Origin: Actinomycetota bacterium
GTDB taxonomy: Bacteria > Actinomycetota > Thermoleophilia > Solirubrobacterales > 70-9
Direction: 5' to 3'
DNA: 64,000 bases
NCBI GenBank assembly: GCA_018268415.1
Contig: JAFDWO010000154.1
Location: 1-64,000 of the forward strand
Numbering within the stretch: position 1 is the first letter of the stretch; each line of letters opens with the position of its first letter. The notes beneath the pieces are model-generated. The model was not told where the DNA came from. It saw nothing but the letters and a program-made list of their open reading frames with translations, and searched no databases. Shown here one piece after another: positions 22,805 through 61,840 of the stretch. The position numbers and the translations under genes were made by a program.

Positions 22805-23212
22805 TCAGTCCGACAGGGCCGGGCTCAACTGTGGCCCGACCTCCTCGAGGGCGCGACGCACCCGCCGGTCGAAGCTGGCCAGGTCCGCCTCGAGGCGCTC
22901 GGCGGTCGCGATGGCGAAGCCGTCGGCCAGGCTGACGCCGAGTCCCCGACGTCGCGCCGCGAGGCGGGCCGTCGCGCCATCGGGAGACGACGTCCGGATG
23001 CCCAGCGAGGCCATGGCGCCGACCGCTGCGCGGAGGGTGCGCTCGTCCTCGGCCGGGCGCACCAGAGCCTCCGCGTAGTTGATCGTGCAGATCACCAGCT
23101 CGGTCCCCGTGGATGTGAACCGGGCGAAGGTCTCGCGCGCGGCGGGGTGGTGTGCGTCGGCCCGATCGAGAGCGGCGATCACGACATCGGTGTCGAGGAC
23201 GCAGATCGCCAC
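22805..23212 (-). CDS. PIN-domain (VapC-type) toxin
   Basis: The 135-residue protein opens ICVLDTDVVIAALDRAD with the first catalytic Asp pair, has the conserved Glu in TINYAEALVRP, and the C-terminal acidic cluster in GVSLADGFAIATAERL. These residues coordinate Mg2+ in PIN ribonucleases. GTG start, 16 bp after the AbrB-type antitoxin gene. Confidence 0.85.
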   Translation of the reverse strand: MAICVLDTDVVIAALDRADAHHPAARETFARFTSTGTELVICTINYAEALVRPAEDERTLRAAVGAMASLGIRTSSPDGATARLAARRRGLGVSLADGFAIATAERLEADLASFDRRVRRALEEVGPQLSPALSD

Positions 23213-23228
23213 CGGGCCGACTCCGTGC

Positions 23229-23447
23229 TCAGCTGCGCTCTTCGGAGCGGAGCTTCTCCAGGTGGCCCGGCTCGTAAAGTCCGTCGAAGACCCCCAGCGC
23301 GGACTCCAGGTCCGGGGCCGCGCGGTGCACGACGATGCGGTCGACGCCCTCGGCCTCGATCACGACCTCGTCCCCAGGCCGCAGGCCCGCCGCCTCGAGA
23401 CTCTCGACCGGCAGGGTCACCTGATGCTTCGAGGAGATACGTGGCAT
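23229..23447 (-). CDS. AbrB/SpoVT-type antitoxin
   Basis: The 72-residue protein has the swapped-hairpin AbrB pattern (MPRISSKHQVTLPVESLEAAGLRPGDEVVI) and a C-terminal toxin-binding tail (GVFDGLYEPGHLEKLRSEERS). It precedes the PIN toxin, the usual order for such modules, and has an inverted repeat just before its ATG. Confidence 0.85.
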   Translation of the reverse strand: MPRISSKHQVTLPVESLEAAGLRPGDEVVIEAEGVDRIVVHRAAPDLESALGVFDGLYEPGHLEKLRSEERS

Positions 23448-23624: not shown

Positions 23625-23675
23625 CCGCGCGGTGTTGGGGTAGGCTCGACGGAGTCATCACCGAAGGGGGATCCC

Positions 23676-24233
23676 GTGGGACGCTTCTCCAGGTTGGCAG
23701 TCGGGTCGGGTGTCGCGGCGCTGCTCCTCGCCGGGGTCGGTGCGTACGCGCTCGCCTCCTCAGGCGGGGCCACGATCACCGTGTGCGTCACGCGCCACGG
23801 CGGCGCGCTCTACAAGGCGAGGAAGTGCGCCAAGGGCGACCGCACGCTCAGCTGGGCGAGACAGGGACAGCCGGGTCCCGCCGGAGAACCCGGTCCGCGC
23901 GGGATCCAGGGTGAGACGGGCGTCCAGGGAGCGCCGGGGACCCCGGGGGCTCCGGGCGCCCCGGGGGTCAGCAACTACCAGGTCGTCACCGGCACCCCCG
24001 TCGCAAGCTCGGGCGGTGGGATCAACCTGGACTCCGCCTTCGCCTACTGCCCACCGGGAACGAGCCCGCTCGGGGGAGGCTTCTCGTCCGCCGGTGAAAA
24101 CAACAAGACCTACGTGAGGGAAGACCGGCCGCTCGGCTCCAACCCGGGCGCGTGGTACGTGCAGACGACCAGCGCGTCGGAAGCGCCGTACACGATCACC
24201 CCGTACGCCGTCTGCGCGGCCGTCTCCGGCTGA
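23676..24233 (+). CDS. Secreted collagen-like protein
   Basis: GTG start, 185 residues. Signal/anchor helix (LAVGSGVAALLLAGVGAYALA), a CVTRHGGALYKARKC segment with two Cys, then about 13 Gly-X-Y triplets (GQPGPAGEPGPRGIQGETG, GAPGTPGAPGAPG), and a globular C-terminus with paired Cys (FAYCPPGTSP, YAVCAAVSG). Triplet stretches probably trimerise; the tail domain is common in Thermoleophilia secreted proteins. Function unknown. Confidence 0.75.
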   Translation: MGRFSRLAVGSGVAALLLAGVGAYALASSGGATITVCVTRHGGALYKARKCAKGDRTLSWARQGQPGPAGEPGPRGIQGETGVQGAPGTPGAPGAPGVSNYQVVTGTPVASSGGGINLDSAFAYCPPGTSPLGGGFSSAGENNKTYVREDRPLGSNPGAWYVQTTSASEAPYTITPYAVCAAVSG

Positions 24234-26164: not shown

Positions 26165-29100
26165 TCAGAGGCCGATGCCCGTCCCGACGTCCGCGGTCTG
26201 CCGCGCCTGGGCGAGCTCACGTTGCTGCAGCTCCACGAAGGCGGCGTCGTACGCCGCCGCGTGGGGGTTCTTCGTGGCGAAGCGCTCCGCCTCCAGGCCG
26301 TCGGCTTCGCGGCGCGCCACCTCGATCCTCGCGTCGATCTCCATCAGCTCCCCGCGCAGACGCTTCGTGTCATCGCTGAAGGCATCGTGCCGTTTGCTCG
26401 CCCGGTGCGCTCGACCCGCGTCCTGCTCCGCCTCGGCTGCCTTGGAGGCCTCCACCTCGCGGCCGGCGAGGTACTCGGCATTGAGCAGGTCCTTCAACTT
26501 GCCTGCGCGCCGCTCTTCGAGGCCCGCGTGGGACCACCCCGCCTGCTGGTCGAGGTTTCGCCACGGGTCCCCCAGCTCATGGAAGAGGGCACGGAGCTGC
26601 TCCGGGCGCAGCTCGGCGACCTCCGGCGCGAGTGCCTTCGAGTAGCGCCTCAGCGCTCTCGCCCGGCGCCCGAGGGAGCGCCTGAACCTCTCGACCGGTT
26701 GCTTCGCCGGCTCCATGCGGGAGTCGTGGGTAGGCACCTCGGGCGGCGGTCGCTCTCCCGCGGGCGTCACCGCGCGGGCCCGCTCGAAGAGCTCCCGGCG
26801 ATCGATCTCCCGACGCGCGGCGATCGCCTTCGCCAGTCCCTCGACCCTGCCGACGGCAGTCTCCAGCTCCCGCAGCGGATCGGCGTCGAACTGCCTCAGG
26901 CTCTGGGCGAAGGCGGCATCGGCGCTCGCGCGCCCCAGCAGCCTGGCGGCTCGGCCGAGAAGGGCCCGCCCGCGCTCCTCGCCGAGCAGCAGCCGGCGCC
27001 CCGGCGAGAGGGGGGCCCAAGGATCGCGCTTGATCGTGCCCGGATCCCGCAGCCACGCGGCGGCGACCTGCGAGGCCGCGGCCTCCCCCCGCGCGCTCCA
27101 CCAGCCGCTCGCTTCCCCGCAGGCGATGCCGAGCTCGTCGCGGGCCGCGGTCTCCCCCGCGGCGATCGCCGCCAGGTCGTCCGCCGTGGCGACCATTCCC
27201 GGCGCCTTCTCGAGCGCCCTCATCTCGACCCCCGCCAGCACCATCGGCGAGGGCTCCTCGGGCGGATGCGTCGCGACCCCGGGCTGGGCCGTGGTGCGCG
27301 CGAAGGCCCGGTCGAGAACGGCTTTGGCCGCGTCTTCGCCGTTGCGGCTCACCGCCGACATGGTCTTTACCCGCGCCGGCGAGTTGAGCTTCTTCCCCCC
27401 GCGGGCGACGCCGACGCCGATGCCCGATATACGCAGAGCGCTCTCCGCCTCCGGGGCATCGGGCGGCGGGCGCATCAGGACCGCGGCGGCGGCGAATCCA
27501 TGACCCGGTTCGGTCGTTTTCGTCGCCCGTGCCATCGCTGCCGTGGCCGCGTCCCAGAACGCGGCCTCCAGCTCCGCCCGCTGCGCCTCGGTTCCCGCTC
27601 GCCACCGTCTCATCAAGGCGGGCGATGCGGTCAGCTGCCACTCGAGGTTGAGGACGCCGCGGACCTTCGCCTGCTTCGGGTTGTCGTTCTCGCCGAGGAC
27701 GACGTTCACCTCGGCGGCGGTCCTCACCCGCCGGCCGGAAGTCGTGTGCTCGCCGCGCATCGCCCGGGCCAACTCGTCGGCCCCGACCGGGGCGCCCGCG
27801 GTGACTCCGAGCTTCGCCAGCGCCTCGGGGGCACCGAACCAGATCGCCTCGGGGGCGCCGGCGAGCCACCTGGCGCCGGGCCTGCCGAACTCCTCCATCG
27901 CCGCCAGCGGCGTCCCCACCTGGCCGACGTCGAAGCTGGGAGGAAGGCGGGCGACGATCGTCTCCCAGTCGAGCCCGCCCAATTGGAGCCGCCTGCCCAG
28001 GTCGACGAGGGCCTTGGGGTCGGCGAGGCGCCGCCAGCTGTGGCGCTCCAGCTCGAGGCCCCTTTTCGCCACCGTGCGGAGGCGCATCAGGTCTCCGGCC
28101 TCCTGGTTGAGACCGCCTTTGTCCTGCCAGTTGGAGGTCTTGCCGAAGTTCTCCTTCACGGTGTGGTTCTGGCCCTCGACGAGAACGTTGGTCGAGCGCA
28201 GCTGCTTGCGCAGCTCGCCCTTCAGGCCGAGTCTCTGGGTCACGACCATCCCCTGCTTGTGGTCCCTCAGGGAGTTCGCCTGCCGCAGGTGTCCCCGCTC
28301 GCGCAGCTCGGCCTCCACCGCGTCGAGCCTCGCCAGGGCGACGTCCTCCGCGTCCGCCGCCAGTGCCGCGTAGATCTTCAGGCGGAATCGCTCCTCGATC
28401 TTCTTGTCGGGAAGCTTCTTGGTCGCGTTGCCGACCCCGTGCGTGGTGCAGGTCCCGACGTTCTTGGCTCCGATCTTCTTCAGCGCCGCCTGGATCCCGG
28501 CGCCCGAGTCCGCGACCCAGTAGACGTCGGGGCTGATCCCCTTCTCGACCAGGCGCCGGAGCCGCGGGGTGATATCCGGCTCCGACTCGTGCTGCGCGAC
28601 AAACGTGTCGAGGAGCCACCGCGACCCGTCCGCCTTGACCCCGACGACCACCATCACCGTGCGCGTCCCGCCGGTGTTCCCGACCGCCGTGCCGTCGAGC
28701 GAGACCGCGACGATCGGCGGCCGGCCGTGGTACGTCCGGTCCTCGAGCACCTTCAGCGCGTCTTCACCCGCATCGACGTCCAGGCGTGAGACGCTCGAAG
28801 GCGACGTCCCGCGCACGCGGCGGCCGTAGAACGCCCGGTGGACCTTCTCGACGTTGCGGGTGGTGACGCCGACGCGACGCAGCAGCTCGATCTGCTGTGG
28901 GTCCTCGTTCAGCTCCTCGAACCAGGGCGGGAAGCAGAACTTGCCGTCCGGCAGCTTCAGGCGCGGGACTTTCAGGTCCAGCTGGAACCCTTCGTAGCCG
29001 ATCGTGCGGCGCACGTGCGGTGCCCACCGCAGCCTCAGATCCTTCTTGGCGAGGAGGACCTCCACTTCCTCCTTGAACGCGTTCTCCAGCTCCTGCTCGA

Positions 29101-29215
29101 GCTTCTCCGTCGCCAACCGCTTGACCTCCGCGATGTTCCTGCCGGCGCGGTTGCGGGGATTGTCTGGGGAGTCCGACTCGGCGATCTCGGTTACCTCGCG
29201 GGGTTCGTGCCGCAC
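26165..29215 (-). CDS. IS256-type DDE transposase fused to a degenerate MobF/TrwC relaxase-like domain
   Basis: The GTG start gives 1016 residues. Residues about 70-400 follow IS256/Mutator transposases: VSLDGTAV (D174), VADSGAGIQAA (D236), then CTTHGVGNA, and STNVLVEGQNHTVKENF (E347) ending at SWRRLA, so a DDE triad is present. Residues about 445-640 resemble the N-terminal half of MobF/TrwC relaxases (PGARWLAGAPEAI, GEHTTSGRRVR, WQLTASPALMRRW, GHGFAAAAVLM), but the His triad expected near residue 595 reads SALRISG. The remainder is helical and charged like relaxase C-termini. No terminal inverted repeats were seen. Usual IS256 transposases have about 400 residues. Domain calls are by motif reading only. 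Confidence 0.65.
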   Translation of the reverse strand: MRHEPREVTEIAESDSPDNPRNRAGRNIAEVKRLATEKLEQELENAFKEEVEVLLAKKDLRLRWAPHVRRTIGYEGFQLDLKVPRLKLPDGKFCFPPWFEELNEDPQQIELLRRVGVTTRNVEKVHRAFYGRRVRGTSPSSVSRLDVDAGEDALKVLEDRTYHGRPPIVAVSLDGTAVGNTGGTRTVMVVVGVKADGSRWLLDTFVAQHESEPDITPRLRRLVEKGISPDVYWVADSGAGIQAALKKIGAKNVGTCTTHGVGNATKKLPDKKIEERFRLKIYAALAADAEDVALARLDAVEAELRERGHLRQANSLRDHKQGMVVTQRLGLKGELRKQLRSTNVLVEGQNHTVKENFGKTSNWQDKGGLNQEAGDLMRLRTVAKRGLELERHSWRRLADPKALVDLGRRLQLGGLDWETIVARLPPSFDVGQVGTPLAAMEEFGRPGARWLAGAPEAIWFGAPEALAKLGVTAGAPVGADELARAMRGEHTTSGRRVRTAAEVNVVLGENDNPKQAKVRGVLNLEWQLTASPALMRRWRAGTEAQRAELEAAFWDAATAAMARATKTTEPGHGFAAAAVLMRPPPDAPEAESALRISGIGVGVARGGKKLNSPARVKTMSAVSRNGEDAAKAVLDRAFARTTAQPGVATHPPEEPSPMVLAGVEMRALEKAPGMVATADDLAAIAAGETAARDELGIACGEASGWWSARGEAAASQVAAAWLRDPGTIKRDPWAPLSPGRRLLLGEERGRALLGRAARLLGRASADAAFAQSLRQFDADPLRELETAVGRVEGLAKAIAARREIDRRELFERARAVTPAGERPPPEVPTHDSRMEPAKQPVERFRRSLGRRARALRRYSKALAPEVAELRPEQLRALFHELGDPWRNLDQQAGWSHAGLEERRAGKLKDLLNAEYLAGREVEASKAAEAEQDAGRAHRASKRHDAFSDDTKRLRGELMEIDARIEVARREADGLEAERFATKNPHAAAYDAAFVELQQRELAQARQTADVGTGIGL

Positions 29216-45390: not shown

Positions 45391-45421
45391 ATAGGCGCGA
45401 TCAAGGTCGAGAGGCGACGAA

Positions 45422-46237
45422 ATGCCACCGCGCCAGTCGACGCGAGTAGCTCAAGCAGGCAGGGACTCGCGTCTTGGTCTGATCGTCAAGATGCCATCCG
45501 CGGCCACCGTGGAAGCTGCCGGCCATGTCGGTTTCGACTTCGTCCTGCTGGATACCGAGCATGGTTCATCCGACATGCTTGAACTCGAGCACCATATTCG
45601 AGCAGCCGACAGTGCTGGTATCGGCGCTCTTGTGCGCGTAAGCTCGGTTGGGAGCCCGGACATCCTCCGGGCCCTGGATGCGGGAGCCGAGGGGATCGTG
45701 GTCCCACACGTCTCTGTAGTTCAGGATGCCGAGCGCGCCGTGGCAGAGACGCATTATCCGCCGCTGGGTCGGCGCAGCTTGGCGCTCTCCACCCGGGCCG
45801 GACGACAGTCGACCAGCCGCCTCGCGAGTCATCTGGGGACCGCCGAAGAGAAGATCCTCCTGATTGCACAGGTGGAGGACGCCGAAGGGCTTGAGAACAT
45901 CGATCGGATTCTCGAGTGCGACGACCTTGACGGGATCTTCATCGGCCCGGCCGATCTGTCCGCATCACTTGGCCATCCCGGTCAATTCGACCATCCACTC
46001 GTTCGCTCAGGCATCAATCAGATAGTCGAGGCGGTCAAGGGAAAGAGTGGCTCTCGTCTCTGCGTTCTGGCCGAGAGTGAGAAAGACCTCACCTATTGGG
46101 TCGACCAAGGTGCCGGCTTGGTGTTCGTCAACGCGCCTGCCTTGATTGCGGGAAGCCTGAGGCGTATGGCGGAAGCGTTTGCGAGCAGTCGGGTCGACCA
46201 AGACCTGGATGGCGTGCCTTCGGCAGCTACTGACTAG
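45422..46237 (+). CDS. HpcH/HpaI-type class II aldolase
   Basis: The 271-residue TIM barrel has FDFVLLDTEHG, EGIVVPHVSVVQDAERAV, YPPLGRRSL (base Arg-region), IAQVEDAEG (metal Glu) and IGPADLSASLGHPG (metal Asp), the pattern of 2-keto-3-deoxy-acid aldolases that release pyruvate. It is 31 bp after the transaminase and probably cleaves its 2-oxo product or a related keto acid. Confidence 0.88.
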   Translation: MPPRQSTRVAQAGRDSRLGLIVKMPSAATVEAAGHVGFDFVLLDTEHGSSDMLELEHHIRAADSAGIGALVRVSSVGSPDILRALDAGAEGIVVPHVSVVQDAERAVAETHYPPLGRRSLALSTRAGRQSTSRLASHLGTAEEKILLIAQVEDAEGLENIDRILECDDLDGIFIGPADLSASLGHPGQFDHPLVRSGINQIVEAVKGKSGSRLCVLAESEKDLTYWVDQGAGLVFVNAPALIAGSLRRMAEAFASSRVDQDLDGVPSAATD

Positions 46238-46260
46238 CAGGGTCGAGAAGCCCCTCCTGC

Positions 46261-46281
46261 GTCGCGGCGAATCGCCGCGAC
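46261..46281. terminator. Bidirectional hairpin between aldolase and GntR genes
   Basis: GTCGCGGCGA-A-TCGCCGCGAC is a perfect inverted repeat directly between two convergent stops. Confidence 0.6.
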
Positions 46282-47076
46282 CTAGCCTCGTCCCGGTGAG
46301 GTATCTCGGTTGCCGAGCCCGGCCGTCTCCGACGCCAGGGCCTCTCGCAGCCTGTCGTCGGCGCTTTCCATGTGCAATCTCATCGCGGCCCGAGCTTGGT
46401 CGGCGTTTCGAGCGACGATGGCCGTCACGATTGGTTCGTGGAGTGCAAAAGAGGTGTCGGTGCTTCCCGCCTGTCGCAGGACCTGGGTCACCCAGACGCG
46501 CAGAAGCGATCGCATGCTGCCGACGAGGTTGGCGAAGACCTCATTCCCGCTGGCCCTGGCGATCTCGAGGTGGAAGCCGATGTCTGCTTCTACGTAAGCA
46601 TCGACGTCGGAGCCGGCGTCACGCATCTCGTCGAGCCTCGCGCCGAGGTTGCGCTTGGCTTCCGCGTCTGCTCGGGCGGCGGCGAATCCTGCCGCCGCGA
46701 CCTCGATCTCGGCTCTTGCCTCCAGAAGGTCGACGATGCTGGGGACGTTCAGAAATAGCCCCCACTCGATGACTTTCGGCAGAAGGTCGGATCCTGAACG
46801 ACTCAGATAGGTCCCGTCGCCTTGCCGGACATCCAAGAGTCCCAGCAGGCTGAGGGACTTGATCGCCTCGCGAACAGACGATCGGCCGATGCCGAGAGCC
46901 TCGGCGAGGTGTCGCTCCCCTGGGATCTTTTCCCCGGGCGCGATCGCTCCCGAGAGAAGGTAGTCGATCAGCTTGCGCGTAATCTCGGCGAGGGGCGTTT
47001 CTCGTGGAGGGAGGCGGAGGCTAGACGGTAGGGCGGGATTGGCTTCTGGCGTCAATTCTCTCTGGGTCCTCCGCAA
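46282..47076 (-). CDS. GntR/FadR-family (FCD) regulator of the seven-site regulon
   Basis: The 264-residue protein has a winged helix (IPGERHLAEALGIGRSSVREAIKSLSLLGLLDVRQGDGTYL) and an FCD domain with ADIGFHLEIARASGN and LHEPIVTAIVARN. TTG 47076 or TTG 47055 (after GGAGG) starts it. Operator site 3 lies just upstream, and six more sites lie in front of the surrounding genes. FadR-group proteins bind palindromes of TGGTnnnACCA type, which GGTCGACC fits. It is the only regulator inside the regulon. Confidence 0.88.
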   Translation of the reverse strand: MRRTQRELTPEANPALPSSLRLPPRETPLAEITRKLIDYLLSGAIAPGEKIPGERHLAEALGIGRSSVREAIKSLSLLGLLDVRQGDGTYLSRSGSDLLPKVIEWGLFLNVPSIVDLLEARAEIEVAAAGFAAARADAEAKRNLGARLDEMRDAGSDVDAYVEADIGFHLEIARASGNEVFANLVGSMRSLLRVWVTQVLRQAGSTDTSFALHEPIVTAIVARNADQARAAMRLHMESADDRLREALASETAGLGNRDTSPGRG

Positions 47077-47092
47077 TCGATTTTTAGCTCTT

Positions 47093-47108
47093 GGTCGACC
47101 GGTCGCTG
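47093..47108. promoter_or_regulatory. Operator site 3 (autoregulation)
   Basis: GGTCGACCGGTCGCTG (13 of 16), 17 bp upstream of the GntR start; on the minus strand a TAAAAAT -10-like box follows it. Confidence 0.65.
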
Positions 47109-47146
47109 ACTCACATCATATCTGCGAACCGGCTTTAAGGGTTCGC

Positions 47147-47177
47147 GGTTGACCGGTTGACCTTCCCGTCATAGACT
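47147..47177 (+). promoter_or_regulatory. Promoter with operator site 4 (VOC gene)
   Basis: GGTTGACCGGTTGACC (47147-47162, 14 of 16) contains the -35 TTGACC (47149); TAGACT (47172) is 17 bp downstream. ATG 47188 is about 10 bp after the -10, so the mRNA is probably nearly leaderless. Confidence 0.72.
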
Positions 47178-47187
47178 CTTTGACACC

Positions 47188-47679
47188 ATGACCTGCTCGA
47201 TGACAGTTGGACATATCGGCCTCTGCGTGCCGGACATCGATGCGGCACTCCTCTGGTATGAGCAGGCGCTTGGCCTTGCGGTGTTGGACGGGCCACGAGA
47301 GCTCGTGCTCAACGAAGGCACCGCCGAGACGCTGTCCGATGTCTTTGGTCCTTCGTTTCGGCGCGCGCGGATCGCCCACCTCGGGACCGGCGGTGAGTGT
47401 GGTCTAGAGCTCTTCCAGTTCCTCGAGCCGCCGACCGACTCCGATTCGCCGCCCTCCTATTTTCACGCGGGCTTTTCTCATCTCTGCTTCGTCACCGAGG
47501 ACATCGATGCCGCTGTCGCCAGGGTTCGACAAGCCGGGGGTCGGATTCGAACTGCGATATGGCCGGAGTATCCGGGGCTGCCCTATCGCTTCGTACACTT
47601 CGAGGATCCGTTCGGCAATCTGCTCGAGTTTCATTCACATCCTCATCGGGAGACCCTTGAGGCCCGACCAGGCGAGTAG
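47188..47679 (+). CDS. VOC superfamily protein, 163 residues
   Basis: It has MTVGHIGLCVPDIDAALLWY, GLELFQFLEPP (metal Glu) and SHLCFVTEDIDAAVARVRQ then DPFGNLLEFHSH (metal Glu), so the His/Glu metal set of glyoxalase I and methylmalonyl-CoA epimerase-like VOC enzymes is present. It converges on alr with 12 bp between stops. Its role in the pathway (isomerase or dioxygenase-like) is unknown. Confidence 0.85.
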   Translation: MTCSMTVGHIGLCVPDIDAALLWYEQALGLAVLDGPRELVLNEGTAETLSDVFGPSFRRARIAHLGTGGECGLELFQFLEPPTDSDSPPSYFHAGFSHLCFVTEDIDAAVARVRQAGGRIRTAIWPEYPGLPYRFVHFEDPFGNLLEFHSHPHRETLEARPGE

Positions 47680-47691
47680 TCAGCCGGAAAC

Positions 47692-48807
47692 TCAACGGCG
47701 TGAGGTCGTCTCGAGGTATCTCCGGACCACCCGTTGCGAGAGGCCACACGTGATCTCGTAGTTGATGGTGTCAAGCCGGCCGGCCATCTCCTCGACGGAG
47801 ACGCTGGGCCCGATGAGCTCGACGGTGTCTCCGAGGCCGACCTCCGCAGCGCCGATGTCGACAGCGAGCATGTCCATGCTGACCCTGCCGATGATTGGGT
47901 GGCGCTGATCGGCGATGGCCACCACCCCCCGTCCGCCGAGCGAACGCCGTACCCCGTCGGCATAGCCGATCGGGACCGTCGCGATTCTGGTGGAGCGACG
48001 CGCGACGAAGGCTTGACCGTAGCCGACGCTATCGCCCGGTTCGCACGCCTTGATGTCCGCGACATAGGAAGTCAGCCGGAGCGCAGGCGCGAGTCCCCAG
48101 TCCTCCGGGTCATTCTGGAACGGATCCAATCCGTAGATGGCGATCCCGACCCGGACCATGTCGAGGCGAGAGGCGGGAAGGGCCAGCGTCGCGGCGCTGT
48201 TCGCAGCATGGAGGAGAAGCCCGGGCTCTTCCTCCTTCAGCGGATCCGTCCAGTCTTTGAACCGTGCCAGCTGTTCTCGGGCGAAGCTTGATCCGGGCTG
48301 GTCGGCAGTGGCCAGATGGGTCATCGCACCGACGAGGTCTACTCCCCCGCTGTTGGCAAGGAATCGGACCAGCCGGGTCGCCGCTGCTGGATCGCGAAGG
48401 CCGATGCGCCCCATACCGGTGTCAAGCTTCACGTGAACCCTTCCACCGGTGCGAGCCACGTGACGGGCAAAAGCATCGGACCAGACGACAACCTCGGCGC
48501 TGCAGCCGTTCGCGCGTTCAAGCTCCTCCGGCGTGAGTGGTCCGAGGATCAAGATCGACGCTCCGACCCCTCCCTCACGCAGTAGCTCAGCCTCGGCGAC
48601 GGTCGCGACCGCCAGCAGATCGGCTCCGGCGCGGAGCGCCTCTCGTCCCACGGGTAGGGCGCCGTGCCCGTAGGCGTTGGCCTTGACCACCGCACAGAGA
48701 AATACCCCGGTGCGTAGCCGCGCCCGAACTGCACGGACATTGGCGGCGATCGCCCCGAGGTCGACGGCGGCGACCGCACGGTGGGAGGTGTCGGCTCGCG
48801 GATTCAT
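47692..48807 (-). CDS. alr: Alanine racemase
   Basis: The 371-residue fold-type III PLP enzyme has the PLP Lys in AVVKANAYGHG (about residue 43), KLDTGMGRIGL, HAANSAAT, MVRVGIAIYG and the second catalytic Tyr in GDSVGYGQAF, followed by IPIGYADG-like PIGYADGVRR and GRVSMDM. It interconverts L- and D-alanine, possibly other amino acids. It is divergent from a fold IV transaminase and shares operator site 5, so here it looks catabolic rather than a housekeeping wall gene. Confidence 0.93.
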   Translation of the reverse strand: MNPRADTSHRAVAAVDLGAIAANVRAVRARLRTGVFLCAVVKANAYGHGALPVGREALRAGADLLAVATVAEAELLREGGVGASILILGPLTPEELERANGCSAEVVVWSDAFARHVARTGGRVHVKLDTGMGRIGLRDPAAATRLVRFLANSGGVDLVGAMTHLATADQPGSSFAREQLARFKDWTDPLKEEEPGLLLHAANSAATLALPASRLDMVRVGIAIYGLDPFQNDPEDWGLAPALRLTSYVADIKACEPGDSVGYGQAFVARRSTRIATVPIGYADGVRRSLGGRGVVAIADQRHPIIGRVSMDMLAVDIGAAEVGLGDTVELIGPSVSVEEMAGRLDTINYEITCGLSQRVVRRYLETTSRR

Positions 48808-48839
48808 GTAGAGGTCGACCGGTCGGCCTCTACATTATC
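48808..48839. promoter_or_regulatory. Operator site 5 in a divergent promoter
   Basis: GGTCGACCGGTCGGCC (48813-48828, 15 of 16) lies within a larger palindrome whose outer arms GTAGAGG (48808) and CCTCTAC (48827) also pair. CATTAT (48834) may be the -10 of the transaminase gene, whose ATG at 48848 would then be leaderless. The alr ATG (48807) touches the palindrome. Confidence 0.75.
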
Positions 48840-48847
48840 CTAAGGCC

Positions 48848-49666
48848 ATGGAAAATTTGCCCGCTGTCGCAAACGGTGTACTGACCACCGCTGACGATGT
48901 ACGCATCGACGTCCGCGACGAAGGCTTTCTGCGCGGGGACGGCGTCTTTGAGGTCATTCGTCTCTACGCTGGACGACCCTTTGCCTTCGCCGAGCATCTC
49001 GCCCGAATGCGCCGCTCCGCTGAGCGCTTGCGCCTACCCTTTTCGCCTGAAGTGGTCGAGCAAGATGTCGATCTGGTTCTCTCGGCTGCAGGCCCGATCG
49101 ACGGCGCCCTACGCCTTGTCGCAACGCGTGGCGGGTTTCGACTTGCTGTCGTCGAGCACATCCAAGAGCTGCCGCCGACGCTTTCACTCGCGACCGTCCT
49201 CTGCCGGCCGACGCTCCTCATGGACGGTGTGAAGTCGTTGAGCTATGCCGGCAACATGCTTGCCCGACGGCTGGCGGCAGAGCAAGGTGCTGACGACGCG
49301 CTGCTGGTGCGGCCAGACGGCGTAGTCCTCGAGGCTCCGACATCCTCCTTCTTCTATGTCCGGCATGGCGAGCTATTCACGCCGCCTTTGTCCGAGGGCA
49401 TCCTGGCTTCGATCACGCGTGAGCATCTACTCGCGATCACGGACGCGACCGAGCGATCGATTGCCAGTCGCGACCTTCCCCTGATCGAAGAGGCCTTTCT
49501 TGCGTCGACGCTGCGGGAGGTGCATCCCGTTCATCGCCTGGATGACAATCTTCTCCCAGGTGAGAGAGGCAAGCTCACTGCAAATGTGGCACGAGCGATG
49601 GGCACCCACGTCAAGGGCTCGGTCGAGCCCTCCGTGGGCCAGGGGCCTGGCGGTCGGAAGCGCTGA
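48848..49666 (+). CDS. Fold-type IV aminotransferase, 272 residues
   Basis: Class IV features: NGVLTTADDVRIDVRDEGFL, RGDGVFEVIRLYAGRPF, PLP Lys in MDGVKSLSYAGNMLARRLA and PDGVVLEAPTSSFFYV. Shorter than its paralogue at 44473. Next to alr, the pattern suits a D-amino-acid transaminase, but aminodeoxychorismate lyase-like and amine transaminases share these motifs. Controlled by operator site 5. Confidence 0.83.
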   Translation: MENLPAVANGVLTTADDVRIDVRDEGFLRGDGVFEVIRLYAGRPFAFAEHLARMRRSAERLRLPFSPEVVEQDVDLVLSAAGPIDGALRLVATRGGFRLAVVEHIQELPPTLSLATVLCRPTLLMDGVKSLSYAGNMLARRLAAEQGADDALLVRPDGVVLEAPTSSFFYVRHGELFTPPLSEGILASITREHLLAITDATERSIASRDLPLIEEAFLASTLREVHPVHRLDDNLLPGERGKLTANVARAMGTHVKGSVEPSVGQGPGGRKR

Positions 49667-49851
49667 AGACTGTGAGTGCGGGTCTACGGTCGCCCCGGAC
49701 TCAGCCCCGACGGTGCTGGAGCAGATTACCCCCCTTCAGCATCTCGGCGAGGGCGGTCTTCGGTCGAAACGTCGCCCTATCGACACTCCGTTCGCCTCCT
49801 TAGTCTCACCCCGAGGCGATTGCATCGCGGTCACCCATACGATACCGTAAA

Positions 49852-49867
49852 CATCTACCGGTCGACC
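49852..49867. promoter_or_regulatory. Operator site 6
   Basis: CATCTACCGGTCGACC (13 of 16 matches), 17 bp upstream of the TTG start of the amidase-like gene; the -10/-35 are not clear. Confidence 0.6.
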
Positions 49868-49884
49868 ACTTAGGAGCTAAGACC

Positions 49885-51525
49885 TTGAAAGACGACAGCG
49901 GAGAATTTGTCGGGTACTGCAATGAGTTGAGTGTTGCGGCTGGGGATCCGCTTCAGGTTCACGTGGCCACCGCGACCTCAGGGCAGGACTGTTGGGTTGA
50001 CATCTACCGCGTTCGCGGCTGCGCAGATGCCCAAGACCTACCGGACTTGGAATTCATCGAGCGCGCCGGACCGGTACAGGTGTTGGCCTATCCACCGTCG
50101 GCAGCCGGTACTCGCTTGGGGCCGGGTGATGCCGACGTGGCGGGGTGTGGGTGGCCCGAGAGCACTGTGCAAGCCTCCATTCCCAGCACCTGGACCAGCG
50201 GGGTCTACCTGGCGCAGTTTACGTCCGCGAGTGATCCGACAAATCGACCTAGCTCAAGATATGGCCAAGACGCGCTGTTCATTGTCCGCCCAGCCGCTGG
50301 CAAGCCGAGCTCCAAAATCCTGGTGCAACTCGGCGTTGCGACCTGGAACGCGTACCATATTTGGCAGAATCGAAACCTCTATATCGGTGATATCGGTGAT
50401 CCCACCGGAACGCATAGCGGCGGCCTTCGCGCCCATAAGGTGTCGTTTCATCGGCCGGCGGTCGGTCTGTCACCCAGGCAGAAAGTCAGCACCTTTCCGC
50501 CTACGGCGTACATGTACACGCTCCCCTTCATTCAGTGGCTAAACGAAGAGAACCTGACTGTCGACTACTGCGCCGGGACGGACATCGATCGGGGTCTCGT
50601 AGACCTCGCTGACTATCGCCTGCTGGTGACGATCGGTCACGACGAGTACTGGAGCAAGCGTCAGCGCGACGCGGTCGAGGGATTCGTCAGCCGAGGTGGA
50701 AATGCTGCGTTTCTCGGCGGTAACCTTGCCTATTGGCAAGTCCGGCTCGCTGAGGAGGGACGCGTAGTCGAATGCTATAAGCGTGCCATGGGGCACGAGT
50801 GGAGCGCGGGCTGGGCTCCGCCGCCACTTGATCCCCTCTATCGAGACCCGCATGCCTATCCCGGTCACGACAATTCAGAAGTAACTGTCGAGTATCACTC
50901 GCCGCCGTTGCACCGGTCGCCCGTGACCCTTACCGGAGCCTCGATGAGAAACGATGAAGGTGCGCCCGCCGGAGAAGATGAAGGCGTCTACTGTGGTGCC
51001 GGCTGGTGGTGGGAGAATTTCGGGGGTCCCCCCCGTCCCGCGAAGGGCTTCACCGTCCTGTCCGCCGAGCACTGGGTCTTCGACGGCACGGGACTCTCAA
51101 GTGGGGACGTCTTCGGCGAAGACAAGAAGATCGTCGGATTTGAGGCGGACGGAATCGACGTCGAATTCTCAGCCGGAGTGCCCAGGCCGACGTTCCGGGA
51201 TGGAGCGCCGAACAACGTCGAGATCATTGCATTTGCGGATTGTTCAGACTGGTCCGAAATTGACTACAGCAAGAAACCGCCCGTTTTCGAGCCTGGCCGC
51301 AGGGCAAACGATGCGACGCTAGGCGCCGTCGTAACGATGATCTCCTGGTCTAGCGGGCAGGGTCGGGTAGTCACCGCTCCAGTCACTGACTGGCCGCGAG
51401 CTCTGGTGGACCTCGTTGATTACACGGACATCTATTCCGGGTCGCGGCGCGTCGTTCCCGCATGTCCGGAGGCGAGGATGATCACCAAGAATATTCTCGT
51501 GCGGCTGGGCGAGCTTGAGGGCTGA
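49885..51525 (+). CDS. N,N-dimethylformamidase large-subunit-like protein
   Basis: The 546-residue protein has an N-terminal beta-domain (about residues 10-140) and a glutaminase-amidotransferase-like domain with ATWNAYHIWQNRNLYIG, MYTLPFIQWLNEENLTVDYC, LLVTIGHDEYWSKRQRDAVE and NAAFLGGNLAYWQVR, the pattern of the dimethylformamidase beta-subunit family. The Tyr-rich HDEYW and following Glu may contribute to the mononuclear iron site; not verified. The true enzyme has about 760 residues and a small alpha subunit; no alpha gene is adjacent. TTG start with TAGGAG upstream. Soluble, no signal peptide. Likely hydrolyses an amide. Confidence 0.72.
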   Translation: MKDDSGEFVGYCNELSVAAGDPLQVHVATATSGQDCWVDIYRVRGCADAQDLPDLEFIERAGPVQVLAYPPSAAGTRLGPGDADVAGCGWPESTVQASIPSTWTSGVYLAQFTSASDPTNRPSSRYGQDALFIVRPAAGKPSSKILVQLGVATWNAYHIWQNRNLYIGDIGDPTGTHSGGLRAHKVSFHRPAVGLSPRQKVSTFPPTAYMYTLPFIQWLNEENLTVDYCAGTDIDRGLVDLADYRLLVTIGHDEYWSKRQRDAVEGFVSRGGNAAFLGGNLAYWQVRLAEEGRVVECYKRAMGHEWSAGWAPPPLDPLYRDPHAYPGHDNSEVTVEYHSPPLHRSPVTLTGASMRNDEGAPAGEDEGVYCGAGWWWENFGGPPRPAKGFTVLSAEHWVFDGTGLSSGDVFGEDKKIVGFEADGIDVEFSAGVPRPTFRDGAPNNVEIIAFADCSDWSEIDYSKKPPVFEPGRRANDATLGAVVTMISWSSGQGRVVTAPVTDWPRALVDLVDYTDIYSGSRRVVPACPEARMITKNILVRLGELEG

Positions 51526-51779
51526 GATCGAAATGCGTGTGGAGGAGAACTAGCCGGCCGCCCAGGCGCGGGTGGTAGGAGAAGGTTGTCCTCGCTCGTC
51601 GTCGGAATGGGGTTGACCGCCGTCGTGCGGCGTGAAAACGAGGAGCCCTCCAGAAGTGCTCCGTTCAAGGGCGCGGAACTCGAGGCTTTGGATTGCTCCC
51701 GAGATTTGGGGGCACAGGTGGGTTTGGGCCGGCATCTGACCGGCAGCAGATCCGGGGTGTCTCGATCGTTCTTCAAGGA

Positions 51780-51810
51780 GGTTGACCGGTAGACCAATGT
51801 GCGATAGCGT
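51780..51810 (+). promoter_or_regulatory. Promoter with operator site 7 (Rbs/Frc-type importer)
   Basis: GGTTGACCGGTAGACC (51780-51795, 14 of 16) contains the -35 TTGACC (51782); TAGCGT (51805) is 17 bp away. The geometry is the same as at site 4. Confidence 0.7.
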
Positions 51811-51894
51811 AGCGCCGGGTTCACGTATCTGGCTGGTCGATTAGCGATTGAGAGGGAAGAGGGTTTGAGTAACGGCATTTCGCGGTTCGGTGCA

Positions 51895-51976
51895 CGCCTG
51901 AGACGATCAGGCGGAGAGCTCGGGCCGACGCTCGTAAAGTGCTTCAGGGTCCGACAAGGCGGAGGCCGGCCTCCGC
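51895..51976 (+). other. Leader hairpins before the permease gene
   Basis: CGCCTGA-GACGA-TCAGGCG (51895-51913) and the self-complementary GCGGAGGCCGGCCTCCGC (51959-51976). CCTCCG (51970-51975) can pair either with its own left arm or with the Shine-Dalgarno CGGAGG (51996-52001), so two exclusive structures are possible. Confidence 0.45.
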
Positions 51977-52007
51977 AGCGGTCCGCCGAACCCCTCGGAG
52001 GCGGTCG

Positions 52008-53120
52008 ATGACGGCCGAGGGGAAAGACGTCCTGACGCAGTCTGCGCACCCGGATTCGTCTTGGTCGGTCGCTGAGGGAGATGCCGGGCAGCTTGCGGCG
52101 CCGCCGGAGTCTCCCGTCTCGTCCTCCAAGGCGATACGGGCCGGCCTGGTGATAGTTCGCTTGGGGCCGGTGGTGATGCTCGTAGCCCTCGTAATCGTCA
52201 TGGCGTTTCTCACGCCGCTGTTCCTGACGGAACGCAACCTGACCAACATCGGCTTCCAGGTGTGCGCGATCGGCTGCCTTGCACTCGGTGAGGCGGTCGT
52301 GATCCTCACCCGGGGCATCGACATATCGGTGGGCTCGATCATCGGAATAGTCGTAGCGTCAAGCTCGGTCCTCTACCTCCACGGCTGGGACCCGATCTTT
52401 GTGATTCTCGCGGTGCTCGGAATCGGGATGTGCGTGGGGTTGGCGAATGGTGCGCTGTATGTGAAGGGCCGTCTTCCCCACCCGTTCATCGTCACCCTGG
52501 CAACGCTGGGTGTCGTGCGAGGTCTCGCCTTCCTGATCACCGGCGGGAACATCAAGCCCGGCCAGCCGGCCGCCTTGGAAACCCTTGGTAACGGCCAGGT
52601 CGGACCCATCCCTTATGCGGCGCTGTTGCTGGCCGGCTTGGCCATCGCAACCTGGGTCTTCACCAAACGGATGAAGTGGGGACGTTGGATCTACGCGATC
52701 GGAGGGAATCCTGAGGGTGCGAAGCGAGTCGGAATTCCGGTCGATGCCGTTCTGATCTCCGTCTACATCTTCTCGGGACTGCTTGCTGCTATCGCGGGTC
52801 TCATTACTGCGGGGCAGATCGGAGTGGGCGACGCAAACGCCGGAAATCTCTATGAACTTAATGCCATCGCCGCGGTGATGATCGGTGGCCTGAGCTACCT
52901 CGGCGGACGGGGCGGCGTGTCGAACGCGATCGTCGGAGCCCTCACCGTCACGGTAATCACCAACGGTCTCCAGCTCCTTTCGGTCAGCGGCTACTGGGTC
53001 GAGATCGTAACCGGGCTCGTGATCATCGCGGCGGTCGAGCTCAATGTCCTCCGTGAGCACATCGAGGACAGGTTCCGTCTCGTACAAGCAATGTCCGAGG
53101 CTGAGGGAGACCCGTCATGA
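52008..53120 (+). CDS. Rbs/Frc-type ABC permease
   Basis: The 370-residue protein has about ten helices and the RbsC hallmarks GEAVVILTRGIDISVGSIIGI (the ILTGGIDLSVG motif), GRLPHPFIVTLATLGVVRGLAF, IYAIGGNPEGAKRVGI and GGLSYLGGRGGV. Unusually long hydrophilic N-terminus of about 45 residues. ATG 52008 has GGAGG 6 bp upstream. Its stop overlaps the ATPase ATG. Confidence 0.9.
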   Translation: MTAEGKDVLTQSAHPDSSWSVAEGDAGQLAAPPESPVSSSKAIRAGLVIVRLGPVVMLVALVIVMAFLTPLFLTERNLTNIGFQVCAIGCLALGEAVVILTRGIDISVGSIIGIVVASSSVLYLHGWDPIFVILAVLGIGMCVGLANGALYVKGRLPHPFIVTLATLGVVRGLAFLITGGNIKPGQPAALETLGNGQVGPIPYAALLLAGLAIATWVFTKRMKWGRWIYAIGGNPEGAKRVGIPVDAVLISVYIFSGLLAAIAGLITAGQIGVGDANAGNLYELNAIAAVMIGGLSYLGGRGGVSNAIVGALTVTVITNGLQLLSVSGYWVEIVTGLVIIAAVELNVLREHIEDRFRLVQAMSEAEGDPS

Positions 53121-53926
53121 GCCAGGGAGCAGGTGGTCAGCACGTGAGCCTTCTGGAGGTTCGGGGCGCGACCAAACATTTCGGGGCAGTACTCGCGCTC
53201 GACAGAGTGGATCTACGACTCGAGGCTGGTGAGGTTCTTGCACTCCTGGGGGACAACGGGGCGGGGAAGTCGACTCTTATCAAGGCCTTGAGCGGAGTCC
53301 ACAAGCTCGACGCCGGCCAGATCGTGCTTGCGGGCGAAGAGGTCGTCATCAAAAGTCCTGCGGAAGCGCGGGCTGCCGGAATTGAGACCGTCTACCAGGA
53401 CCTCGCCCTCTTCGACAACCTGAGCGCAACCGAGAATTTCTTCGCGGGCCGCGAGATGTCCAAGTTCAATTGGCTCCGGGGGTTCGCCTTCGTGCGCGAC
53501 AGGCAGATGGAGCGTGAAGCAACCAATCTGCTCGACTCGCTCGAGGTGAAGCTGCGGATCGACAAGCGATCCGCCGTCGGACTCATGTCGGGAGGGCAAC
53601 GACAGGCTGTCGCGGTCGCCAGGGCGGCCGCTTTCGCCTCTCGTATCGTCATCCTGGACGAGCCCACGGCTGCGCTCGGGGTTCGCGAGACGCGGAACGT
53701 TCTGGAGCTCATCAAGAAGCTCGCCGGGAGAGGGATCGGGGTAATCCTGATCTCCCACAACTTGGAGGACGTGACTGCAGTGGCCGACCGAGCCATGGTG
53801 CTCCGCCAGGGCAAATTTATCGGAGAAGCTGAGGCCACAGGCGCGAACCACGAGGCGCTCGTCGGAATGATTGTCGGCGCAAGCCGCTACGCCGTTGCAG
53901 GTCGATCTGGAACGGCGCCACAGTAA
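53117..53926 (+). CDS. Rbs/Frc-type ABC ATPase with a single nucleotide-binding domain
   Basis: The 269-residue protein has Walker A GDNGAGKST, signature MSGGQRQAVAVARA, Walker B IVILDEPTAAL and H-loop LISHNLEDV. RbsA/MglA proteins carry two such domains (about 500 residues); this single-domain form is like FrcA, so the complex would need a homodimer. Confidence 0.9.
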   Translation: MSQGAGGQHVSLLEVRGATKHFGAVLALDRVDLRLEAGEVLALLGDNGAGKSTLIKALSGVHKLDAGQIVLAGEEVVIKSPAEARAAGIETVYQDLALFDNLSATENFFAGREMSKFNWLRGFAFVRDRQMEREATNLLDSLEVKLRIDKRSAVGLMSGGQRQAVAVARAAAFASRIVILDEPTAALGVRETRNVLELIKKLAGRGIGVILISHNLEDVTAVADRAMVLRQGKFIGEAEATGANHEALVGMIVGASRYAVAGRSGTAPQ

Positions 53927-53958
53927 CGGGTCACCAACGTAAAGGAGCTAAACACTCG

Positions 53959-54978
53959 ATGAGAACACTCCCGAAGGCCGGCGCAGGTGCCGTCCTGTGC
54001 AGTCTCGCCATCGTGCTCGGGGTTCTGCTGTTGACGGGCTGTGGAGGATCCGGCAGTAGTAGTAGCGGCAGCAACGCCGGTTCGTCAGGTACCGAAAGCG
54101 CCGGCGCCGATGGAAACGAATACACGATCGGTTTTGTTCAGCCAGGACCGGACGCGCCATTTTGGGTCGAAACCAGAGAAGGCGCGGAAGAAGCCAAACT
54201 CAGCGAGGCGACGGTCTCCTATGGCAGCGGCACCCACTCCGAGAACGTCACGGAATGGATTCCAGTGATCGAAAACCTGATTACCCAGGAAGTTGATGCA
54301 ATGGTCGTTCCTGGCGTCGAACAGATCATTCCGGCACTAAAGAAAGTGCAGGCCGCCGACATCCCGATCATCTTCTACGCCGATGGGATTCCTGGGAGTG
54401 ACCTGGCGACGTCGACGGTCAATACCGACTCCGTGAAGAGTGGGGAATTGGCCGGTGAGTACATCAAGGAACAGACGAATGGAGGCGAAGGCTCCCTCGC
54501 GATCATTCGGTATCCGAAGGGGGAGTACCCGCTGATCGATGAACGTGTCGAAGGCGTCGAAAATGGCCTCAAAGGTACGAAGATGGCAAGCGAAATCGAA
54601 TATTCGGATGTCGGGTGTGAAGAGGCCCCGGCCATGCACGCAACCCAGAACATCTTGACGAAGAACCCCGAAATCTCCGCGATCTTCGGGGAGTGCGGTG
54701 CCCCCATTCTCGGGGCGCAGCAGGCGATCAAGCAGGCCAACGTACCGCCCGGTCAGATCGTGACCGCTGCGATCGACGGGTCTGAACCGGAGATCGAAGC
54801 GATTATCGCGGGTGAACAGGGCGCCACCGTCGCTCAATACCCTCACAAAATGGGTCGTATGGCAGTCGAAACCGCCGAAAAGGTGTTGAAAGGCGAATCG
54901 GTGCCGTCCTTCATACCGACGGGCAGCTTGTTGATTACGAAAGAGAACGCCAAGGAAGCACTACACGAGAAGCGCTAG
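53959..54978 (+). CDS. Rbs-type periplasmic-binding lipoprotein
   Basis: The 339-residue protein has a lipoprotein signal (VLGVLLLTGCGGSG), a Ser/Gly linker and a type I binding fold: YTIGFVQPGPDAPFWVETRE, VDAMVVPGVEQIIPALKKV, DIPIIFYADGIPGS, GQIVTAAIDGSEPEIEAIIAG. The RbsB/YtfQ pattern suggests a sugar or other polyol-like ligand. AAAGGAGC precedes the ATG. Two Cys may form a disulfide (VGCEEA, GECGAP). Confidence 0.87.
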   Translation: MRTLPKAGAGAVLCSLAIVLGVLLLTGCGGSGSSSSGSNAGSSGTESAGADGNEYTIGFVQPGPDAPFWVETREGAEEAKLSEATVSYGSGTHSENVTEWIPVIENLITQEVDAMVVPGVEQIIPALKKVQAADIPIIFYADGIPGSDLATSTVNTDSVKSGELAGEYIKEQTNGGEGSLAIIRYPKGEYPLIDERVEGVENGLKGTKMASEIEYSDVGCEEAPAMHATQNILTKNPEISAIFGECGAPILGAQQAIKQANVPPGQIVTAAIDGSEPEIEAIIAGEQGATVAQYPHKMGRMAVETAEKVLKGESVPSFIPTGSLLITKENAKEALHEKR

Positions 54979-55083
54979 CCGAAGATCGGACCGGAGGCAC
55001 GGGGCGGGGCCTCGTCTCGTCTCGTGCCCACGGCAATCTGCTCTTAGGCCGCTCCTTGCGGAAACGACGGAGGGTGATCACGC

Positions 55084-56673
55084 GTGAAAGGCAAAGTCGA
55101 TGCGGCACGCTACGAGGAGTTGCGGTCCGGCCACCGGTGGGAGGTGCCGGCGAGTTACAACCTCGCCGCCGACATCTGCGATCGCCACCCGGCCGACGCC
55201 CTGGCTCTGATCCACGAGCATCACGACGGGACCGTCCGCGACGTCCACTGGGGGGAGGTGCAGGCGCTCTCCAATCAGGCGGCCAACCTGCTCGGGGGGT
55301 TAGGCGTCGAGCGGGGCGATCGCGTCGCGGTGGTCCTGCCGCCGACCCCGGAGACCGCCGCGATCTTCTTCGGCACCTGGAAGCTCGGTGCGATCCTGCT
55401 CTCGATGTCGGTCCTCTACGGCGACGAGGGGATCGCTCATCGCGTCGGTGACTCCGAACCGAAGGTTCTGGTCACCGACGCCGCCAATGCCGGCCGCTTC
55501 GCCGGGCTCGAGGGACCGCGGCTGGTCGTCCTCGAGCCGGCCCTGCTGAGCGCCGAGTCCGATCGCGCGGAGACCGCGATGACGTCTGCCGACGACCCGG
55601 CCCAGCTCTATTACACCTCCGGCACCACGGGCCTTGCCAAGGGCATCGTCCATGCCCACCGCTACATCCTCGCCCACAACGAGTTCGAGCTCTGTCATGA
55701 AGTGCAACCGGGTGAGCGCTTCCATGGGATGGGGGAGTGGGCCTGGGCTGCGGGGATCGTGCCCCTCCTTGGTCCCTGGCGGCTGGGCGCGACCCAGCTC
55801 GTCCTTCAGCGCGAGGGCGGTTTCGACCCCCACCGCCAGCTCGACTTCCTCTCCCGCCATGAGGCCTCCAACGTCTTCGCCACGCCCACGGCGATCCGCT
55901 CGATGATGGGCATCGCCGACGCGCGGGAGCGTTATCCGCAGCGGTTTCGGATCGTCTGCAGCGCCGGTGAGCCTCTCAACCCCGAGGCGATCCGCTGGTT
56001 CCGGGATCAGTACGACGTAACCGTTCTCGACTACTACGGCCTCACCGAGTCCTACCCCCTGTGCGGCAACTTCCCGTGGATGGAGGTGAGGGAGGGCTCG
56101 ATGGGTAAACCGCTGCCCGGGTGGGAGGTCGCGATCCTCGACGAGGACGAGAAGCCGGTGGCCCAGGGGGACCGCGGCGAGATCTGCCTCCGCGCCCGCT
56201 CCAACCCGAGTTACCCGCTCGGCTACTGGCGCCAGCGCCAGGCATCGGAGGAGACCTTCGGCGGCGAGTGGTTCCACTCCAAGGATGCCGCCCGCATGGA
56301 CGAGGACGGATATGTCTGGTACGAGGGGCGCGCCGACGACGTGATCATCGCCGCCGGCTATCGGATCGGCCCCTTCGAGGTCGAGTCGGTCTGCCTCGAG
56401 CATCCGGCCGTGGCCGAGGCGGCGGCGGTCGCCTCCCCCGACGAGCGTCGCGGGTCGGTTGTGAAGGCCTTCGTCGTCCTTGTCGCCGGCCAGGAGCCTT
56501 CGGAGGAGCTCGCGGGCGAGATCAAGGCCTTCGTCCGCGATCGTCTCTCGGCCTACGCATACCCGCGGCGGATCGAGTTCGTCGATGACCTGCCAAAGAC
56601 CCTGACCGGGAAGATTCGGCGGATCGAGCTGCGCCGGCGCGAGGAGGAGCGCCATCGGGAGGAGGTTGCGTGA
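55084..56673 (+). CDS. Acyl-CoA synthetase (acetyl/medium-chain type)
   Basis: The 529-residue AMP-forming ligase has the phosphate-binding loop [26 protein letters not shown], the A8 hinge [23 protein letters not shown] and the C-terminal [10 protein letters not shown] with catalytic Lys. [11 protein letters not shown] resembles medium-chain acyl-CoA synthetases. GTG start. Overlaps the next ligase gene by GTGA. Confidence 0.88.
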
Positions 56674-58304: not shown

Positions 58305-58339
58305 TGGATCGTGCTTGCTTACAGACTAGACGGACAGGT

Positions 58340-58381
58340 GCCGCCCCGCGCTCGTGGTCGGTTCGCTGAGCGCGGGGCGGC
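58340..58381. terminator. Bidirectional 14-bp terminator hairpin
   Basis: GCCGCCCCGCGCTC (58340-58353) and GAGCGCGGGGCGGC (58368-58381) pair perfectly around 14 nt between convergent stops at 58304 and 58388. Confidence 0.65.
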
Positions 58382-58387
58382 GGTAGG

Positions 58388-61678: not shown

Positions 61679-61840
61679 CGTTCGCCTCCCGTGTCAGCGG
61701 TGAGCTGGGCGTGAAAGGCGTCGGGCGCGGCGGGATACCCCGCTGGCATTGGTGCGACGCCTCGGGTACTCAGCGTACGCCGGTCGTCGCTCAGGGGGTT
61801 ACGAGTTGCGGAATCTCATCTGGAAGATCTCGTCTCGGGG

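Follow-up and report, generated by a model that had tools for sequence, protein, structure and literature searches.

What does a protein do that begins as an insertion-sequence transposase and continues as a conjugative relaxase? The question is raised by a single uninterrupted frame of 1016 residues on the minus strand of a 64,000-nucleotide stretch of actinomycetote DNA (hereafter the window; its genome is G000), in which a Mutator/IS256-type DDE transposase is followed by a degenerate TrwC/MobF relaxase domain (about residues 427-647) and a tail. The first-pass annotation had read the frame as two different DNA-processing folds in one chain, a reading that homology and the predicted fold bear out. 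The fusion is genuine, with both domains in one protein, and is present as one full-length copy in its own genome. Its features are listed in Table 1.

The opposite strand of the gene is also open, for 943 codons, and the local DNA is 73% G+C, so the open frame by itself is weak evidence of coding. Amino-acid homology with the sister protein of genome G008 extends across about 950 columns. Between these two genes the 4-fold sites are 49% identical, with 41% expected from composition, and are therefore near saturation; second codon positions are 57-62% identical against 26% expected, and alike in the DDE, relaxase-like and C-terminal segments. Since second positions are conserved while third positions are near random, all three segments are under selection as protein. 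The ratio dN/dS is unusable because the synonymous sites are saturated.

Table 1. Features of the fusion gene and its neighbour in the window
Feature	Position	Strand	Remarks
Small conserved gene, 96 aa	25839..26129	plus	convergent with the fusion, ends 35 bases from it; no Pfam match
Fusion gene	26165..29215	minus	GTG start; 1016 aa; single uninterrupted frame of 1016 codons
N-terminal region of IS256 transposases, residues 1-165	28721..29215	minus	Pfam colinear match; domain assignment by colinearity, hence putative
DDE catalytic (RNase H-like) domain with helical insertion, residues 166-365	28121..28720	minus	Pfam, NCBIfam and 6xg8 profile match
D174, first catalytic Asp	28694..28696	minus	kept in 4/4 members
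D236, second catalytic Asp	28508..28510	minus	kept in 4/4 members
C256-x-x-H259, C/DxxH signature of Mutator-type transposases	28439..28450	minus	alignments; motif from PMC3942029 and PMC7780238
E347, catalytic Glu	28175..28177	minus	kept in 4/4 members
Linker between transposase and relaxase-like domain, residues 366-426	27938..28120	minus	conserved in G008, partly in G190
Degenerate TrwC/MobF relaxase (HUH) domain, residues 427-647	27275..27937	minus	sequence comparison, relaxase HMM, predicted fold
W450, at catalytic-Tyr position (Y23 of element relaxases)	27866..27868	minus	alignments
R595-I-S597 in place of HxH metal motif	27425..27433	minus	alignment; RVS in G008, RVD in G190
Helical region, residues 648-830	26726..27274	minus	initially TrwC-end-like (WW motif near 705); without helicase domain
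Tail, residues 831-1016	26168..26725	minus	homologous to G008 and G243 tails, which match the C-terminal tail of the element relaxase
C-terminal GIGL	26168..26179	minus	GxG-hydrophobic end in 4/4 members and several relaxases

The transposase and relaxase-like parts

Residues 78-354 of the fusion match Pfam Transposase_mut (2.1e-17, 63.5 bits against a cut-off of 21). The IS256 equivalog of NCBIfam is matched at 7.5e-26 but with 90.9 bits, under its 150-bit cut-off. The closest solved relative of this part is the ISCth4 transposase 6xg8 (profile match 8e-13), whose residue numbers (D175, D241, E348 and C262/H265) and domain limits have been published and whose N-terminal region consists of dimerisation, N-terminal DNA-binding and HTH domains (PMC7780238). 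In the alignment, D236, E347 and C256/H259 fall on D241, E348 and C262/H265; D174 is printed two residues out of register with D175, in an equivalent motif (LDG against IDA). The IS256-like core with D174, D236 and E347 that had been recognized from the letters is confirmed by the Pfam match and by this alignment. Across the four diverged members of the family, the DDE triad and CxxH are in register. The members of G008 and G243 are missing the IS256 N-terminal part up to about residue 108. An ordinary insertion-sequence copy is rejected: the gene is single copy and no terminal repeats were found near it, the best ungapped inverted-repeat arm within 600 or 1500 bases of the window fusion being no better than in shuffled sequence.

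Profile searches matched IS256 with the library profiles, whereas relaxase similarity of the window fusion was missed by direct Pfam or NCBIfam search and emerged with an HMM built from true element relaxases only. This model finds the fusions of G000 (1.9e-14), G190 (5.1e-11) and G008 (7.7e-6), the best of 2,000 shuffled decoy sequences reaching 0.028. In pairwise comparison the relaxase-like part is 29% identical to a relaxase on the same contig (E 4e-13) and 33% identical to the relaxase adjoining the sister fusion (E 1e-13). Both relaxases farther along the window's contig match the fusion and are themselves true MobF proteins (TrwC, 1e-38 to 1e-42). A model of residues 396-745, predicted from an alignment that included six true relaxases and thus not independent of them, has a mean pLDDT of 69, with about 88-93 across much of the core, and is predicted to have the MobF fold. 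The first 20 rows of a fold search with it are solved structures of MobF relaxases (Z 12.3-15.2; F TraI, 15.2) and the next row falls to 6.3, and in Foldseek TrwC and TraI were the only matches under 0.001. The full-length model made with no true relaxases in the alignment (pLDDT 40) was too poor for use. A chance likeness to relaxases is rejected by the decoys and the fold comparison, and the MobF similarity first suspected from short motifs stands.

The HxH metal site had been described as replaced at SALRISG, and the alignments agree: the place of LHVH in the relaxases is taken by LRIS in the window fusion, LRVS in G008 and VRVD in G190. In addition, the tyrosine kept in 7/7 aligned relaxases is a tryptophan in the window fusion (W450) and in G008. 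With the HxH and the catalytic tyrosine both lost, the relaxase part, judged from its residues, cannot nick DNA by known chemistry. An SF1 helicase is absent from the window fusion (AAA matches occur in P0003 and P0005 and in neither P0001 nor P0002). The helical region, residues 648-830, is common to the window, G008 and G243 members.

On sequence comparison the tail is demonstrably relaxase-derived in three members (G243, G190 and G008). Residues 634-760 of the G190 fusion match the tail of a G207 relaxase (964-1103; E 3e-9), and a relaxase-tail profile matches G243 at 9.4e-8, G190 at 8.5e-7 and G008 at 4.3e-5. The tail of the window fusion has no direct match to this profile and is linked to it only through its sisters. 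The four fusions end in GIGL, GIGA, GAGM or GAGL. Ends of this GxG-hydrophobic type are found in 4/4 fusions, 3/5 element relaxases, 5/16 other MobF relaxases and 5/176 other genes; the motif was picked after the first cases had been seen and is a lead, not proof. The G-hydrophobic-G/E end seen in five of the 16 ordinary MobF relaxases of the order (L065-L084) may serve such relaxases generally as a C-terminal signal. To our knowledge, no translocation signal is known for these MobF relaxases.

The fusion family and its conjugative element

The survey of homologues found three more members carrying the same fusion, not two separate genes, for a family of four members in four genomes. The G008 member is from the same genus and is 42% identical to the window fusion (record JAFDWF010000093.1, a metagenome-assembled actinomycetote). 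The G190 member comes from a genome of another family and has lost its N-terminus at a contig end; the G243 member comes from a third family and a 9-contig assembly. The domain order is the same in the window, G008 and G190 members. The G243 member matches that of G008 in the DDE domain (1e-18) and in the C-terminal part (1e-12), with no recognisable HUH core, and the DDE domain, the tail and the GxG-hydrophobic C-terminus are common to all four. The three fusions with a relaxase domain form one clade in the relaxase-domain tree (support 99/99) and all four form one clade in the transposase tree (support 100/99), which fits a single origin of the fusion. In the relaxase tree, which is unrooted and gives the fusions long branches, the ordinary TrwC of the order are parted from the element relaxases and the fusions by a long branch with full support. 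Searches of plasmids, phages and viral contigs found no further fusions. A pattern scan of genome contigs gave no match with the window protein (P0001) and only the G008 record with a two-member alignment, and PADLOC gave no defence-family match.

The fusion-bearing genomes all carry a divergent MobF conjugative element. TrwC is present in 38 of the 131 genomes of the order, and two intact TrwC genes lie within a few kb only in G000, G008 and G190; exactly these three also have the fusion, a co-occurrence with a chance of 1 in C(131,3), or about 3e-6. Genome G207 has a relaxase of the element clade, and no fusion was detected in it. In G000 the two relaxase genes are in tandem (L003 4756-8199 and 8244-9497; contig C60:64755-69496), one with helicase and one HUH-only, and similar tandem pairs occur in G008 and G190. 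In G008 a 1194-aa relaxase-helicase is followed by the fusion on the other strand, a 402-aa HUH-only relaxase and then T4SS genes (TcpC, TcpE, a VirB4-like ATPase and a transglycosylase). In G243 the fusion lies between coupling protein and relaxase genes, with more T4SS genes farther along. In both G008 and G243 the transposase gene is part of an element that also encodes relaxase, coupling protein and T4SS components; the window fusion is 35 kb from the relaxases and shares only a contig with them. The contigs of G000 (a 160-contig assembly), G008 and G190 are fragments. The small gene convergent with the window fusion has relatives inside the G008 and G243 elements (63% and 60% identical, respectively), adjoining a sigma-factor gene; it was not found when searched on plasmids. 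That the fusion belongs to the conjugative element, and lies inside it in G008 and G243, is well supported.

Several other features of these loci were observed. In G008 the fusion and relaxase genes converge on a 27-base inverted repeat (81%, arms 179 bases apart; L016 11144-11376), a possible oriT or terminator. Window positions 45395-61693 encode aldolase-like, GntR-type regulator, ABC transporter, DegT-like aminotransferase and DHQ-synthase-like genes; many of these genes have relatives that adjoin the related relaxase in G207, and they may be cargo of the element. The G+C content of the window drops to 59-64% at 40-56 kb. The window also encodes a short collagen-repeat protein (Pfam Collagen) with a signal-like N-terminus (23625-24233) and a PIN-domain (VapC-like) protein (22805-23359), with no obvious antitoxin gene called beside the latter.

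In ordinary MobF loci of the same genomes (G000 C48 and C59; G190 C98 and C102), relaxase and PF00589 integrase are 4-6 kb apart, whereas the search of the four genomes for PF00589 tyrosine integrases found none near the fusion elements: there is none on C60, C219, C124 and C262, and none within about 1 Mb of the G243 locus. It is thus possible that the fusion serves in place of the integrase. Serine recombinases were looked for among the open frames scanned with Pfam. Flanking repeats, as envisaged by the first-pass annotation, were found neither around the window gene nor in the G243 and C60 regions: across 80 kb of G243 and 88 kb of C60, no inverted repeat accompanied by a target duplication of 8-9 bases stood out convincingly from shuffles, so no element end is defined.

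Possible roles of the fusion

We read the fusion, at a little short of an even chance, as the enzyme that integrates, and probably also excises, the DNA of a family of MobF conjugative elements. An integrase of this kind, with relaxase parts retained for docking and possibly export, is the simplest way to read the domain layout. In what was apparently a single event, a Mutator/IS256-type DDE transposase would have been linked to a copy of the relaxase of the element itself, one already without helicase and unable to nick. Cutting and joining of the element ends would fall to the DDE domain, and the relaxase-derived parts, a dead HUH domain and the C-terminal tail, would dock the enzyme on the relaxosome or on the coupling protein/T4SS; docking would couple insertion to transfer, and the enzyme would perhaps be exported via the T4SS to the recipient along with the transferred strand. 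Transposition of the element, docking and export by the fusion are steps that we infer. The specific mechanism in which a DDE integrase fused to relaxase remains rides the relaxosome/T4SS and inserts the incoming element on arrival, that is, a protein-delivered, transfer-coupled transposition, is possible but rather doubtful.

The integrase reading is supported by the co-occurrence with two-TrwC genomes, the location inside the G008 and G243 elements and the 96-aa marker gene. It also draws support from the lack of a nearby PF00589 integrase, the retention of the DDE triad, CxxH and relaxase tail, and the shared C-terminal motif, and from known parallels in TnGBS, mycoplasma ICEs and VbhT. Counted against it are the lack of terminal repeats or target duplication, the missing IS256 N-terminal DNA-binding part in G008 and G243, the 35 kb gap to the relaxases in the window, the fragmentary contigs and the failure of the relaxase-tail profile to match the window tail.

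Alternatively, the protein may belong to the element and no longer move it. As a decoy relaxase or regulator it would bind oriT, the element ends or the coupling protein and restrain transfer, for fertility control or exclusion of competitors, and its DDE domain would only bind DNA. The loss of both relaxase active sites, the transcription of the G008 fusion against the relaxases and the failure to find element ends are consistent with such a role. However, the four members, at 30-40% identity, still have an intact DDE triad and CxxH, which is needless for a pure binding protein, and the G243 member has lost the relaxase core; we consider this role unlikely. The first-pass annotation had itself suggested a transposase that uses the relaxase fold only to hold DNA. 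Such a working transposase might be aimed by the dead fold at, for example, oriT-like or single-stranded DNA and would be a parasite of the element, not its integrase. Predicted retention of the relaxase fold from the first strand onward, co-occurrence with relaxases and the existence of members without the IS256 N-terminal DNA-binding part agree with this suggestion, which is weakened by the single copy without terminal repeats, when some IS256 copies in related genomes are multiple and near-identical, and by the G243 member, which lacks the relaxase core yet has the tail. We regard it as conceivable but improbable. Because the G243 tail survives though the HUH core is lost, docking is favoured over DNA holding, and the retention of the DDE domain with a relaxase-derived tail points to docking or transport through the tail.

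A domesticated host protein, the other role initially proposed, is not favoured, since the fusion goes with the conjugative element and is inside it in two genomes. It is very improbable, and largely refuted, that the gene arose by accident, through read-through or recombination where an IS256 copy had inserted into a relaxase gene, and is now functionless and in decay. Relaxase residues have been lost and long open frames arise easily in this DNA, but three members have the same domain order, amino acids are conserved in all segments at synonymous saturation, and the fusions are one clade in both trees. An assembly or annotation artefact merging two genes might be suspected in a genome of 160 contigs; it is refuted by the same junction and architecture in independent assemblies and by the DDE-plus-tail form in the nine contigs of G243.

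Known relatives and significance

The fusion resembles IS256/ISCth4 transposases (p-MULT 1) in having the DDE triad and CxxH at the same positions. These proteins have about 400 residues and come with terminal repeats, whereas the fusion has about 600 extra relaxase-derived or relaxase-attached residues, and is single copy with no terminal repeats found. With MobF relaxases such as TrwC and F TraI it shares the predicted HUH-domain fold (Z 12-15) and, in three members, a tail resembling that of the element relaxase; unlike them, it has no HxH, catalytic tyrosine or helicase and carries a transposase at its N-terminus. Mutator-type transposases use circular intermediates and drive TnGBS and mycoplasma ICEs (PMC3942029), in which a transposase of this type is likewise tied to conjugation machinery, although the p-MULT families are others and the hosts are streptococci and mycoplasmas. 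The words relaxase and fusion are absent from the text of that paper. In VbhT of Bartonella, a relaxase's BID secretion signal is joined to a toxin and the protein is exported (PMC5675462), and here too a relaxase-derived part sits on an unrelated enzyme beside conjugation genes; however, VbhT combines a BID domain with a FIC toxin, not a MobF tail with a transposase, and its export has been shown, whereas export of the fusion is a possibility. More generally, export by conjugation systems delivers element proteins that are active in the recipient (PMC8406263).

Both protein families and DDE-driven ICEs are already known. No precedent was found in the accessible literature for the fusion, for its association with a MobF element that has two relaxases or for its apparent use in place of the integrase; nor was any report of a transposase-relaxase fusion found there, subscription papers lying outside our coverage. 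The MobF element family apparently uses DDE transposition instead of a tyrosine integrase, for which we found no report in this bacterial lineage, and the fusion joins VbhT as a second apparent example of an enzyme that has taken over parts of a relaxase. A conjugation-delivered transposase would also be of interest as a possible tool. Every integrating conjugative element needs its integrase in the recipient at the right time. If our reading is true, a transposase carrying relaxase parts would meet this need by travelling with the transferred strand, and two otherwise separate chemistries would be physically coupled.
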